Shown: in pieces, positions 19,463-25,139 of the stretch
Position numbering within the stretch: position 1 is the stretch's first letter
How the letters are laid out: every line of letters starts with the position of its first letter
NCBI GenBank assembly: GCA_944390805.1
Contig: CALXQW010000036.1
Span: 1-64,000 of the forward strand
From: an uncultured Opitutales bacterium
Lineage (GTDB): Bacteria; Verrucomicrobiota; Verrucomicrobiia; Opitutales; Intestinicryptomonadaceae
Direction: 5' to 3'
Length of the DNA stretch: 64,000 nucleotides
Notes under the pieces: generated by a model
Told to the model about the DNA's origin: nothing
Databases searched by the model: none
What the model saw: only the letters and a program-made list of their open reading frames with translations
Made by a program: the position numbers and the translations under genes

Positions 19463-22400
19463 ATGCACAATATTAATAAATTGTTAAGGCGCGCCGCCTC
19501 GGCGTCGGTTTTAATGCTCTCTTGCGTCGGTGTTTGCGCGCAGGATGCGGAGCTTGCTCAGCGCTCTACGGCGGATATCCGTAAAGAGGCATCTTCGTTG
19601 ATTGCAGACAGAGATTACATTTCGGCTCGTCCTCTCCTGAAAGAACTTATAACACGTTTTGAGAATTTGGAAGACGGCGCCCTAAAGGCACAGCTCGAAA
19701 CTTTCGAGTTCTATATGGCATATTCCTATGTTCAGGAATACGCAAATAATCAAGGCAATAAGGGGGCGTTGATTACGGCTACAAATCTCCTTAATAATTT
19801 TATGGAGAAGTATCCGAACAGCAAACATGCTGTAGACGCGCTCAGGACTCTTGCATCATGCTATGCCGGACAAGACAAGCTTGAGCAAAGCGCTGCTGTT
19901 TTGGAGAAACTGGTGAACCCGCCTTATATAGAGAGGCTCAATGCGGCAGAGTATCTTGCAATCGTAAAGCAGATTTCCGAGACACTTTATCTTAAGAGCG
20001 ATTGGACAAACGGACAGAAGTGGTTTGAACGTCTTTTTGCACGCGCCAATACACTCGACACCAAGGTGTATGCCGCAGTTGCTTTGATGCGTTCTGCAAT
20101 AGCCAGAAACGATTTTGACGCGGTAATGAAGCTTATGCCTTATATGGTTTACGATGCTCCAGCGCGTTATGATATTTTCTTGAATATGGATTTTCTCCGT
20201 GCTGGAGACGAGCTTGTTAAGCGCAAGGAATTCAGCAAGGCATCTTTGATGTTTAGCATGGTGTATTCTAGGTCGCAGATTCTTGCGGGGCTGAAGGCGT
20301 ACAAAGCAAGGCTCGACAGGGAGATGAAGCGTCTTGCCGGATCAGAGAATAACACGCGTCTTGACGAATTGAAAACTGCCTCCACGGTAAATGATTCCAT
20401 CATTAAGAACATAGAGGATATGCAGGATTACACTTCGAGTTTGATGGCAAGAACTGCGCAGAATTATCTTCTTACAAAAAGAACGTACGAGAGTTATTGG
20501 TCGTTCCGCAGGCTCATAGACGAATATCCGCAAGATCCAAATCTTGAGGCGTTCTACTATGCGGCGTTTATAGGCGCAAGCCAGATAGGCAAAGATAACG
20601 AGATGTTCGAACTCGGCCAGGAATATCTCAAGAAGTTCCCGAGTGGAACTTATGTTCGCGATGTAATCTTGAATACGGCGCAGTACTATTTGCGCACAAA
20701 GCAAAAGCCTCTTTTCTTCTCCACGGCGCTTGATTTTATAGCTAAGAATCCAGATGACGACTACAACAGGCTCTTCGTATTCCTTCTTGGAAAGACCTGG
20801 TTGGAAGATGAAAACTACAAGGAGCTCAACAGTACATTTTCAAACTTTATAAAGAAGTATCCCGACACTCCGCAGATAGAAGGGTGTTATTATTGGTTGG
20901 GTCTTTCTGATTTGGTGCAGTCCAATTACAAGGGGGCCTTGGCGAGATTTTCGTATCTTGTTGAGAACTATCCTAACGGCGAGTACATAGAAGACGCGTG
21001 CTATCGCAAGGGTATATCTGCATTCGGAACGGCGGATTACGACAAGGCGGACGAGGCTTTCACATATTTTATGGATAGGTTCCCCGACAGCAAGCTTGTT
21101 GGTGAGGCGGAGTTCTTCCTTGGTGATGTGGCCGGTTTGGTAGGCGATTTGGAAGGTGCTGTTAAGCATTATATGAATGTCGAGAAGAAGACCGACAATC
21201 AGAGTTTTATAAATAATGCGTATTTGCAGTCTGCAAAATTGTATTCGGCCGCAGAGCGTTATGAAGACCAGATAAAGGTTTTGGACACCTTCATAGAGAA
21301 GTTCCCAAAGGAGAATTTGGGAATGTACATATACCAGAAGGGCGAGGCTCTCAGAAAGCTTGGAAAGCCTGCCGATACCTTGAATTTGTTTGCTTCGGCA
21401 ATAGAAAAATATGGCGATAAGGTTGCCGACGACGGCATAGATAAAATGATACTTGCGTATTCGGATTTTTACGACAAAGGCAAGAAGCAGATAGATGCAA
21501 CGATAGCTTTCCTTGAGAAGGCTATATCAGATAGTGCTTTCAGGGAGATGTTGGTAAAAGTTCCTGCGAAGCGTTATCGTCATTTTGAGGACAATCCCAA
21601 TATAGATAAGAATATATATCGGAGCTTAAAGAAAGATCCAGCTTATGGTGATGTTCTTTTGACTGACACTACTGTGCTTAAGAAGCTTCTCGATTCATAC
21701 AAAGCGCAGCAGGCTTCTTTCCCGAAGGCTGATCCGGAGAAGTTCTTAAAAGATTTGCTGGCAAAAGCGCAGGCGTCAAACAATACGGCGTTGGCATATC
21801 GTTGTCAGATGGGGCTTGATGCGATAGGCAAGCCTATTGTCCAGAATAAGGTATTTGGCGCGGAAGACTTCAAGAAGGCATCGGTGCGTACATTGGTATG
21901 GATGGCCAAAGAGATGCGCAAGTATGGTCCGGAGAATGCAGAGAAGGCGTATAAGGCGGCACTTGCTCGCGAGGAGTACGAGTATATGTGCAATGCTCTT
22001 ATGGATTATGCAGATTTCCTTGAGACGCAGGCGCAGTGGCAGAAGGCATATGATATATATAAGCAGGTAGAGAGGGATTATCCTTCCGATGATAGGGCTG
22101 GAGTTGCCGCTTTGAATCAGGCGCAGATGCTTTTAAAGATGAAGAAGCGCGATGCCGCAGCGAAGAGGTATGAGCAAGTTCTCAAGACTCCGTCATGGCG
22201 CGGAGAGACGCATGCCCAGGCTCTGTACGAGCTTGGAAGAATGGCGCAGGAGGATGGTAAGACAGACGATGCCCTCATGTGGTACGACAGGTGCTTCCTG
22301 ACATATTCCAACTGCTATAAGTTCTCCGGCAAGGCGTTGTCGGCGGCGGCGAGGCTGCTTGTTACGGGAGGCAAGATAGACGAGGCCAAGAAGGTTTGCG

Positions 22401-22477
22401 ACGAGTTCCTAAAGGACGTCAAGAACAAGGCCTGTGCGGAGTATGAGGAGATACGCAGGTTTAGGACATCACTTTAA
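19463..22477 (+). CDS. Large periplasmic TPR protein
   Basis: 1004 residues. A signal peptide is evident (MHNINKLLRRAASASVLMLSCVGVCAQ). The rest is almost wholly alpha-helical tetratricopeptide-type repeats. Clear units include YVQEYANN...ITATNLLNNFMEKYPNSKHA (about 95-120), RRLIDEYPQDPN, the pair GALARFSYLVENYPNGEYIEDACYR and ADEAFTYFMDRFPDSKLVGEA (about 480-560), and YDIYKQVERDYPSDDRAGVAALN (about 850-880). The YPxS endings of helix B resemble the YbgF/BamD-like outer-membrane TPR type. It is the first gene of an operon with a second TPR protein and a VWA-like membrane protein, with gaps of about 27 and 32 bases. Inferred role: envelope scaffold. No enzymatic domain is seen. Confidence 0.85.
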   Translation: MHNINKLLRRAASASVLMLSCVGVCAQDAELAQRSTADIRKEASSLIADRDYISARPLLKELITRFENLEDGALKAQLETFEFYMAYSYVQEYANNQGNKGALITATNLLNNFMEKYPNSKHAVDALRTLASCYAGQDKLEQSAAVLEKLVNPPYIERLNAAEYLAIVKQISETLYLKSDWTNGQKWFERLFARANTLDTKVYAAVALMRSAIARNDFDAVMKLMPYMVYDAPARYDIFLNMDFLRAGDELVKRKEFSKASLMFSMVYSRSQILAGLKAYKARLDREMKRLAGSENNTRLDELKTASTVNDSIIKNIEDMQDYTSSLMARTAQNYLLTKRTYESYWSFRRLIDEYPQDPNLEAFYYAAFIGASQIGKDNEMFELGQEYLKKFPSGTYVRDVILNTAQYYLRTKQKPLFFSTALDFIAKNPDDDYNRLFVFLLGKTWLEDENYKELNSTFSNFIKKYPDTPQIEGCYYWLGLSDLVQSNYKGALARFSYLVENYPNGEYIEDACYRKGISAFGTADYDKADEAFTYFMDRFPDSKLVGEAEFFLGDVAGLVGDLEGAVKHYMNVEKKTDNQSFINNAYLQSAKLYSAAERYEDQIKVLDTFIEKFPKENLGMYIYQKGEALRKLGKPADTLNLFASAIEKYGDKVADDGIDKMILAYSDFYDKGKKQIDATIAFLEKAISDSAFREMLVKVPAKRYRHFEDNPNIDKNIYRSLKKDPAYGDVLLTDTTVLKKLLDSYKAQQASFPKADPEKFLKDLLAKAQASNNTALAYRCQMGLDAIGKPIVQNKVFGAEDFKKASVRTLVWMAKEMRKYGPENAEKAYKAALAREEYEYMCNALMDYADFLETQAQWQKAYDIYKQVERDYPSDDRAGVAALNQAQMLLKMKKRDAAAKRYEQVLKTPSWRGETHAQALYELGRMAQEDGKTDDALMWYDRCFLTYSNCYKFSGKALSAAARLLVTGGKIDEAKKVCDEFLKDVKNKACAEYEEIRRFRTSL

Positions 22478-22504
22478 AGAGCAACCCGAAGAATTATTTT
22501 AGAG

Positions 22505-23641
22505 ATGAAAAAACTTTTTATTACAGTAATGGCAGCGGTGATGGCGATATCGGCGCGTGCCCAGCAGGAAGACAGGGATTATGTAAAGGATTATTCCGGT
22601 ACAAAAGCGTCGGTAAGCATGCTTGACGAGTCCACCGGGAGGGCTAAAGCGCTTGTGTATAAAGACACTACCGATGTATCCGGGGTTAAGAATTTTGTAT
22701 TTACTGCGGCAGACGGAAGTTCTGGAGAGATGCTGGTTCCAGTAAATACAAAGTACAAGTTTGCCACACGCCAGAATGAGACGTTTAAGGCAGGGTCTTC
22801 TGCTTACGACAAGGGCAACTACGAGGGAGCAATAAATGCATGGCGCGACACAATATATACATATCTACCAATATTGGAGATGCCCGAGCAGCCGACGTTT
22901 TCAATGCATACCGACGTTGCAAATTACATAGATGCATTGATAAAGACAAAGCGTATGAAGGAGGCCGAGGGATTATCTAAGGCTATTCCGTATGGCACGG
23001 CACCGCAGAGTTTGTCGGTTGCCGGTTTGGCGTTGGCTAGGGCATTTGTTGCTGCAGATATGTTTGATGCGGCGCAGGATGTGTTGTCTCGCGTGAATTT
23101 TTCCGGGGATAATATAGATTTAATTCCGGACGGAATGCTTGTGCTTGCGGATCTTCGCAAGAAGAACAGGGCAAAGCAGGCGCTATTGTGGTATACAAAG
23201 CTCTCAAACATAGCGGAGAATCCGCAGAAGCAGGGAGCTTTGGTATGGATGGTCTATTGCGATTTAGTCTCAGGGAACAAGGCGTCGGCGGAGGTTTATT
23301 TGTCGCAGATAGGTAAGCTTGAGAGGTCGGACAAATATTTTTCTCTTTTGCAGATGATAAAAGGAATATTTAAGGTTCAGGAGAAGAAGTATTCTGAGGC
23401 TCTCGATTTGTTCGCCGAAGGAATTGTATACGGAGATGTTGCAGCTGACTGGATGCCGGAACTTCTATACAGATCTGGGCTTGCCTATAAGACCCTGAAG
23501 CAGAATATGCCGGCAAATGAGATTTTCTCTCAGTGCCTTATGCTGTATCCAGAAGATGCATACTCCAAGCTTGGAGCAAAAGAGATAGTAAAGATACCTG
23601 CTGAACAGCAGAAGAAAGCCCAAGCGGAGTCTCAACAATAA
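22505..23641 (+). CDS. Periplasmic TPR protein
   Basis: 378 residues with a signal peptide (MKKLFITVMAAVMAISARAQ). After a beta-rich segment (residues 25-95, containing VFTAADGSSGEMLVPVNTKY) the protein is helical TPR: SSAYDKGNYEGAINAWRDTI, AFVAADMFDAAQDVLSRVNF, SALLWYTKLSNIAENPQK-like units, and AYKTLKQNMPANEIFSQCLM, ending in a Gln/Ala-rich tail. The position between the large TPR protein and the VWA-like protein, with short gaps, indicates a shared complex. I do not recognise a more specific family. Confidence 0.8.
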   Translation: MKKLFITVMAAVMAISARAQQEDRDYVKDYSGTKASVSMLDESTGRAKALVYKDTTDVSGVKNFVFTAADGSSGEMLVPVNTKYKFATRQNETFKAGSSAYDKGNYEGAINAWRDTIYTYLPILEMPEQPTFSMHTDVANYIDALIKTKRMKEAEGLSKAIPYGTAPQSLSVAGLALARAFVAADMFDAAQDVLSRVNFSGDNIDLIPDGMLVLADLRKKNRAKQALLWYTKLSNIAENPQKQGALVWMVYCDLVSGNKASAEVYLSQIGKLERSDKYFSLLQMIKGIFKVQEKKYSEALDLFAEGIVYGDVAADWMPELLYRSGLAYKTLKQNMPANEIFSQCLMLYPEDAYSKLGAKEIVKIPAEQQKKAQAESQQ

Positions 23642-23673
23642 ATTTATTGTCCCCAAACAAAATTTAGACGAAC

Positions 23674-25089
23674 ATGAAAATATATCGTTTCAAACCCAAG
23701 AAACAGAAAAACTCCCTACTATTTAAGGTATTTGTAATAGTAGCGATCATTCAGATTGCCTTGTTGGTGGGATTCAGCGGTATGATAATATCGCAATCAA
23801 TAATCGATTTGGGAACGGAGATGGAAGCTCCCAAAGTGACGGAGAAAGTTGAGCCTCAGCGACAAGAGGTTAGGGCAAGGCTTAATCAGACCCAGCGCAA
23901 GTCTACAAAGCTTACAAAGCGCATTAGTGTAGTAAATCCAAATAATATAAATGCGCCAGAAGTAGATATAAAACTGCCTTCCGGATTGGGTGGAGGCTTT
24001 GGCGGATTTGCTCCTATAACCGGAGTAAATATAGATAACTCCGTAATTATTGCAGAGATTCCCGTAAATCTTTTTGGATTAAAAAGTAAAACGGAGAGAG
24101 TCTTGATCTGCATAGATGCCGGAAAGCATCTTATGACTGACGAGCGCGGCGGTCTGGATACATACAAGGTTATTAGGGAAGATGTAAAGAAGCTTGTGAA
24201 TGAATTGCCCGGAACGGTGCTTTTCAATTTGATGGCCTTTGAGTGCGCGGGAAGGGTAAATATAAATTTATTTATGCCCACACTTGTTCCTGCAAGCGAT
24301 GCCAATAAACGTAGAGTGGATGCATGGATAGATCCTATAAATGCAAGTCTTAATCGTTTGGGCACAAGCAATAATTACACTTTGAAATATCCGTTTATGC
24401 CGCAGCCTCCGTCGACGCGTTATTATAATCCTGGATTATCAGATAAATACAGGGTCTATCAGGCGGCTCTCGAGCAGGGTGCAGATACGATATACATATT
24501 AACTACTGGTTGGACCGATCCTGATAGAATAAAATATCCGTGGACTGATGCGGAGACAGAGCGTTTTGCCCGCGAGGAAGAAAAATATCAGCGCGATGTG
24601 GAAAAGGCTCTTAAGCAGGCTGGCTGGACAGAGGAAAAGCAACTTGAATACGATAAGCAGCTTGCCATAAATAGGACAAAGGCCATAGCAAAGGCCAGAG
24701 ATTGGATAGAAAAAGAAAATGCAAAACGTAAAGCGGCAGGTAAACCGTTGTATACTGGAGATCCAAATAGGGTTATATCGGAACAGAAGCTTTTGGTATA
24801 TCCAGAGCCAAGGCCTCCGTCAACAGCAGGAATAAAGCGTCCGGTTCCAAAGTTTAAGAGTTATGGTAGAAGCGGACTATTTAAGTTCTACGAGCCTTTG
24901 TTCAAAGAGGTTTACGATCTTAAAAATATCAAGAGGCCTCAGGTTAATCTGATAATTTTTAAGGGCGAGAAAGAGGAATGGAGTGCCGCAGAAAATAAGG
25001 TTGCTCGCTCTTTTGCCTCGATGAATAGCGGTGGAAAAGTTAGAGTACTTAGAGGGCTTAAGCCTGTTGACGAATACGATAATAAGTAG
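23674..25089 (+). CDS. Membrane-anchored VWA-like protein, metal site degenerate
   Basis: 471 residues. There is a short basic cytoplasmic start and one transmembrane helix at about residues 20-42 (FKVFVIVAIIQIALLVGFSG). A Gln/Arg-rich linker and a Gly-rich stretch (GLGGGFGGF) follow, then a von Willebrand A-like Rossmann domain from about residue 140. Strand 1 reads RVLICIDAGKHLMTDERGG, and FNLMAFECAGRVNINLFMP plus an ANKRRVDAWIDPI segment match the layout of VWA proteins found beside TonB/ExbBD-like genes in Verrucomicrobia. The MIDAS motif DxSxS is absent (D-A-G-K-H), so metal binding is doubtful. The C-terminal third has a charged insertion (about 290-370) and a final alpha/beta segment. 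It is the third gene of the TPR operon and is followed by a terminator. Confidence 0.7.
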   Translation: MKIYRFKPKKQKNSLLFKVFVIVAIIQIALLVGFSGMIISQSIIDLGTEMEAPKVTEKVEPQRQEVRARLNQTQRKSTKLTKRISVVNPNNINAPEVDIKLPSGLGGGFGGFAPITGVNIDNSVIIAEIPVNLFGLKSKTERVLICIDAGKHLMTDERGGLDTYKVIREDVKKLVNELPGTVLFNLMAFECAGRVNINLFMPTLVPASDANKRRVDAWIDPINASLNRLGTSNNYTLKYPFMPQPPSTRYYNPGLSDKYRVYQAALEQGADTIYILTTGWTDPDRIKYPWTDAETERFAREEEKYQRDVEKALKQAGWTEEKQLEYDKQLAINRTKAIAKARDWIEKENAKRKAAGKPLYTGDPNRVISEQKLLVYPEPRPPSTAGIKRPVPKFKSYGRSGLFKFYEPLFKEVYDLKNIKRPQVNLIIFKGEKEEWSAAENKVARSFASMNSGGKVRVLRGLKPVDEYDNK

Positions 25090-25101
25090 AGACACTCTTA
25101 T

Positions 25102-25139
25102 AAAAACGGCTGGAATAAAAATTATTCCAGCCGTTTTTT
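25102..25139 (+). terminator. Terminator of the TPR/VWA operon
   Basis: AAAACGGCTGGAATAA and TTATTCCAGCCGTTTT form a perfect long stem with a three-base loop and a T-run. Confidence 0.95.

Follow-up and report, generated by a model that had tools for sequence, protein, structure and literature searches.

The genes P1, P2 and P3 of the window (the whole 64,000-nucleotide stretch of DNA that was analysed) are likely to encode one half, the one without the motor, of a trans-envelope machine driven by protons; the machine would be split between two loci, still coupled and remodelled at its motor contact, and this is the explanation that best accounts for the data. Judging from the sequences of its relatives, the ExbB–ExbD1–ExbD2 motor of this machine is relocated as an intact cassette in the family of the window organism (hereafter f1), not lost. 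The most informative feature, which the first-pass annotation of the window did not mention, is the TonB/TolA-like transmembrane helix of P3, in which the key His is replaced by Gln.

The three-gene unit

According to the ORF list, the unit consists of P1 (TPR1; 19463–22477, 1004 amino acids), P2 (TPR2; 22505–23641, 378 amino acids) and P3 (23674–25089, 471 amino acids), all on the + strand. The lengths and strand agree with the first-pass annotation, and its spacing of about 30 bases corresponds to measured gaps of 27 (P1–P2) and 32 (P2–P3) bases. The closing terminator that it described is also present: sequence and fold place an intrinsic terminator at about 25103–25139 (+) at the 3' end of the unit (−23.3 kcal/mol for 50 nt), although this hairpin is absent from the output of the generic terminator scan. 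No ExbB or ExbD gene is found between or beside P1, P2 and P3 in the window.

Both P1 and P2 had been called signal-peptide TPR proteins, and both contain a Sec-type signal sequence, read directly from their N-termini, together with TPR matches. Those of P1 are strong and of the YfiO/YbgF type (also given as YbgF/BamD type); P1 also scores above the TIGR02795 YbgF cut-off, which is probably a reflection of its TPRs. The matches of P2 (TPR_19) are weaker, and a low-confidence secondary-structure prediction places a small N-terminal beta-rich region before the TPRs.

P3 is, as previously described, a single-pass protein: it contains one hydrophobic segment, which follows a basic N-terminus and peaks in the 19-residue windows starting at residues 14–21. 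The transmembrane helix (about residues 15–44; 23716–23805, +) is followed by a Pro-rich periplasmic linker (about residues 45–135; 23806–24078, +) and a periplasmic domain, which is the layout of TonB and TolA. Directly after the membrane, the linker carries a conserved EAPP-type segment, and P53 is invariant in the linker consensus of the alignment; by analogy with published systems (PMC12204202, PMC10907165) this segment is a candidate motor box/D-box. The P3 of the window has no Pfam or NCBIfam match, and hence no TonB_C/TolA C-terminal domain. Because this protein alone is insufficient for a VWA call, the assignment of its degenerate vWA domain relies on homologues that take the equivalent place among the genes: of the 13 members of the P3 alignment, two match Pfam VWA (the better one with E = 3.2e-6, over the cut-off). 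A PDB profile search with P3 returns weak vWA matches only (ITIH1/ITIH4, best E = 0.005), and AlphaFold2 models built from two sequences each are poor (pLDDT 40 for P3 and 43 for P2). The VWA-like fold of the earlier description is thus retained as an assignment by homology, the Pfam matches belonging to the homologues and not to the window protein itself.

Loss of the metal site

At residues 148–152 of P3 (24115–24129, +) the motif DAGKH stands in place of DxSxS, so IDAGKH had been read correctly at this position. D148 is invariant in the P3 alignment; G150 and H152 stand where the motif has its two Ser. Where a metal-binding vWA domain has DxSxS and a downstream Asp, the window protein has DAGKH and TTGW. 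Among the orthologues, 20 of 24 P3 proteins outside Opitutales have an intact DxSxS, against 2 of 14 from other Opitutales and none of the 15 from f1; based on these counts, the ancestral P3 probably had a metal site. The alignment therefore indicates a genuine loss of the MIDAS, which extends to all f1 proteins and predates f1. This answers the question, raised earlier, of whether the loss is fixed among the orthologues, and the 15 degenerate f1 proteins rule out a single mutated gene.

Ancestral six-gene operon

Orthologues of P1, P2 and P3 occur in f1 as well as in many further families of Opitutales; a scan for loci related to the window unit returned the sister genome only. The three genes directly follow one another in each of the 14 f1 loci in which all three are readable (P2–P3 gap 16–51 bases), which bears out the conserved multi-gene envelope complex that had been proposed. 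Outside f1, the gene order is P1–P2–ExbB–ExbD1–ExbD2–P3 in many Opitutales families and also in other, distant Verrucomicrobiota families. The motor genes are linked to P1–P2–P3 in nearly all families other than f1, and P1 orthologues adjoin P2 throughout the order and the phylum. The listing of conserved neighbours suggested by the first-pass annotation thus yields ExbB–ExbD1–ExbD2 in the operons of relatives; around the operon, no conserved neighbour beyond the six genes, as a possible clue to a substrate, was found. The distribution of P1–P2–P3 within the order is patchy and some genomes of the phylum contain several P1 or P3 copies, which together suggest an accessory, perhaps substrate-specific, role.

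Relocated motor cassette

The genome of the window contains six ExbB matches, all outside the three-gene locus. One of them, located where contig C3 ends, lies much nearer to the operon ExbBs than the other five, which are paralogues, do. An orthologue of the operon ExbB is present in 17 of the 19 f1 genomes, and these 17 genomes also have P3; the one-contig genome G009, assigned to f1, gave no candidates in any search that included it, may not be readable and was treated as uninformative. Wherever the contig continues, the relocated f1 ExbB is followed by ExbD1 and ExbD2, and motor loss in f1 is ruled out by this cassette. In the maximum-likelihood tree, 16 f1 ExbBs cluster together (100/100) within the operon clade, with operon ExbBs from other Opitutales as their neighbours and apart from the five paralogues of the window genome; this rules out that the relocated ExbB is itself a paralogue and not an orthologue. 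The earlier statement that ExbB and ExbD genes are lacking therefore holds beside the three genes but not for the genome, where one of the six ExbB matches is the operon orthologue.

In the window assembly, the first 210 residues of ExbB precede the contig end and ExbD1 and ExbD2 are missing there; at L062:2-631 and L117:2-634 both related assemblies stop inside ExbB, at residue 210/211, hiding ExbD1 and ExbD2. Since the contigs of the window assembly and its sister assembly end within ExbB, ExbD1 and ExbD2 are presumed there from the relatives. In the motors of the f1 relatives, both ExbDs retain their pore Asp and ExbB retains its threonines. In several f1 genomes the cassette is located between leuS–(FecR-like)–lpxI–sufE and hexapeptide–GT2–formyltransferase genes (L104:3610-10189), surroundings which possibly represent a lipid A/envelope neighbourhood.

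Covariation of the P3–ExbB contact

In cryo-EM structures from E. coli, TonB Ser16/His20 touch ExbB Ser34/Trp38 and TolA Ser18/His22 touch TolQ Ser28/Trp32, and the His is required by both TonB and TolA (PMC12215075). In linked operons, most P3 helices contain the SxxxH core of the SHLS motif, with the His present in 35 of 38. In the window protein and all f1 P3 proteins, V and Q/M replace the S and H of this core; the equivalents of TonB S16 and H20 in the window are V23 and Q27, the latter encoded at 23752–23754 (+). Across f1 the His position is occupied by Gln (13/15) or Met (2/15). The ExbB column aligned to Ser34 contains Ala or Gly in f1, not Ser; this equivalence comes from a gap-free alignment of TM1, where the paralogue at L058 has the canonical SxxxW in the same column, the PDB profile alignment having stopped short of TM1. 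The locus L058:7328-9661 of the window genome is a canonical ExbB–ExbD–TonB_2 locus, with SxxxH in the transducer and SxxxW in ExbB, and serves as an internal control.

Among 53 P3–ExbB pairs, His occurs with Ser in 35, neither is present in 18 and mixed pairs are absent. The His–Ser pair ranks first of 4,940 P3–ExbB column pairs (phi 1.00), and is still first of 4,950 when f1 is left out (phi 1.00). The idea of covariation predated the collection of 30 further loci, and all 16 pairs obtained from these fit it, two losses included. Besides f1, joint losses are seen at L190 (Thr/Phe), L254 (Leu/Ala) and L245 (Tyr/Asn), all three in operons which are still complete and linked. On the tree of P1, a protein that is not part of the contact, the His–Ser pair requires four changes, at least three of which are forced by well-supported branches. 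We put at about even the chance that coupling without the transducer His is what these changes represent, i.e. that the contact was jointly swapped in at least three, probably four, lineages and that the machine still works, even when split.

Comparison with known systems

Force transducers with a vWA domain were proposed in 2025 (MBE) from bioinformatics in PVC bacteria (Tichowtungia family), with no function assigned; their genes follow a TPR gene, a tolQ-like gene and a pair of tolR-like genes, and 'many' of them, not all, have the SHLS motif in the N-terminal transmembrane helix (PMC12204202). P3 shares with them the transmembrane helix, the disordered/Pro-rich linker and the vWA domain, and its relatives share the TPR, tolQ-like and two tolR-like neighbours. 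The f1 unit differs in that the TPR genes are adjacent while the motor genes are at another locus, and in the replacement of the motor-contact His by Gln/Met and the lost MIDAS; also, the unit here includes P2 as another conserved TPR gene. Although the SxxxH core is absent from the window P3 and all f1, homology and descent place P3 in the vWA force-transducer family, despite the lost SHLS motif. The unit is a real, conserved and under-studied machine. The view of it as an undescribed system survives in part: the class was described in 2025 (PMC12204202), and what is added here is a further TPR gene, the splitting of the operon and a contact that covaries.

Two further sets of proteins were seen. 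G085 and G130 contain many extra ORFs (about 370–650 amino acids) which match the transmembrane and linker part of P3 only, suggesting transducer families with other C-terminal domains. The loci L066, L067, L068, L071 and L196 encode another class of membrane-anchored vWA proteins, which have Gln in place of the His and DxSxS or near-DxSxS motifs, and none of these fetched loci contains operon-type ExbB or ExbD.

The TonB–ExbB–ExbD and TolA–TolQ–TolR systems resemble the unit in the membrane-helix docking site, the pmf motor residues and the three-part architecture of the transducer. They differ from it in that P3 has a vWA domain and TPR partners instead of a TonB_C/TolA C-terminal domain, and in that the unit has two different ExbDs and no linked receptor, TolB or Pal. 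Neither TolB nor Pal is adjacent to it, and an OmpA-domain gene is on another contig.

A putative locus of the Akkermansia MUL complex was considered in genome G161, a putative A. muciniphila genome. At L205:2891-9119 it contains ExbB–ExbD1–ExbD2 followed by two TPR genes and no P3; it resembles the unit in TPR proteins adjoining ExbB–ExbD–ExbD and differs in gene order, in the missing P3 and in weak or absent TPR orthology. Direct orthology to the MUL1 locus is unsupported, as there is no clear P3, the TPR match is unspecific and the ExbB grouping is weak.

Proposed mechanism and alternative explanations

Concerning the assembly, the coupling in f1 and the direction of force, P3 would be anchored in the inner membrane beside ExbB–ExbD1–ExbD2, as TonB is beside ExbBD. 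Its linker would span the periplasm and its metal-free vWA domain would bind a partner, most likely P1 and/or P2, as gene order suggests. Proton flow via ExbB/ExbD would pull or rotate P3, and the TPR proteins would hand the force on to an outer-membrane or cell-wall target. In f1, P3 and the relocated ExbB would cooperate via a Gln/Met–Ala/Gly contact instead of His–Ser.

As the His is indispensable to TonB and TolA of E. coli, its loss in f1 could mean uncoupling; P3 would then hold the TPR proteins at the inner membrane as a passive scaffold that has neither motor docking nor MIDAS, while the relocated ExbBD would serve another transducer. We consider this rather unlikely. The His and the MIDAS are both absent from all f1 P3 proteins, the ExbB Ser is likewise gone and the two genes are unlinked; however, the replacements on both sides are conserved and not drifting, the three other joint losses sit in complete operons, and P3 and ExbB co-occur in the same genomes. 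The loss of the MIDAS does not track that of the His either, which makes them two separate events. That the unit is a self-contained periplasmic complex and at no time had a motor, as the first-pass annotation read it, is highly improbable: this suits the lack of ExbB/ExbD in or beside the three genes, but is contradicted by the linked motor of nearly all other families and by the orthologous motor at another locus in f1, where the cassette and the nesting of its ExbB among operon ExbBs show that the motor genes moved elsewhere.

The remaining alternatives concern function. A MUL-like role, i.e. the use of energy to capture or take up large glycans of the host, is compatible with the split, still-coupled machine but doubtful. 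The motor block adjoining two TPR genes in the candidate Akkermansia genome speaks for it, and several P1 or P3 copies in some genomes of the phylum suit substrate-specific use. On the other side, a clear P3 is not found in that genome, the gene order differs, P1 is as close to another TPR protein encoded there as to the TPR gene of the block, or closer, and its ExbB is a long branch with a weak grouping (96/62). MUL genes (pili, periplasmic complexes) are required for the accumulation of mucin products (PMC12418764); the link of the unit to Akkermansia mucin use is weak. It is less probable still that the unit is a second Tol-Pal-like system which stabilises the outer membrane, with P1 as a CpoB/YbgF analogue. 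The TIGR02795 score of P1, probably due to its TPRs, fits this, but the unit lacks a TolB or Pal gene, an OmpA/Pal-type gene and an ExbB–ExbD–TonB_2 locus are present elsewhere in the genome, and the patchy distribution is unlike that of a housekeeping system.

Significance

Transducers that are driven by a proton motor and belong to neither Ton nor Tol have been proposed as a group only recently, and the source paper reports no phenotypes for them (PMC12204202). The covariation provides independent evidence, from sequence, for docking of vWA transducers on ExbB at the site used by TonB, and it supplies naturally occurring alternatives to a contact that is considered essential in TonB and TolA. 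For genetic work in cultured Verrucomicrobiota, the six genes, in their complete and in their split form, offer a well-delimited unit.
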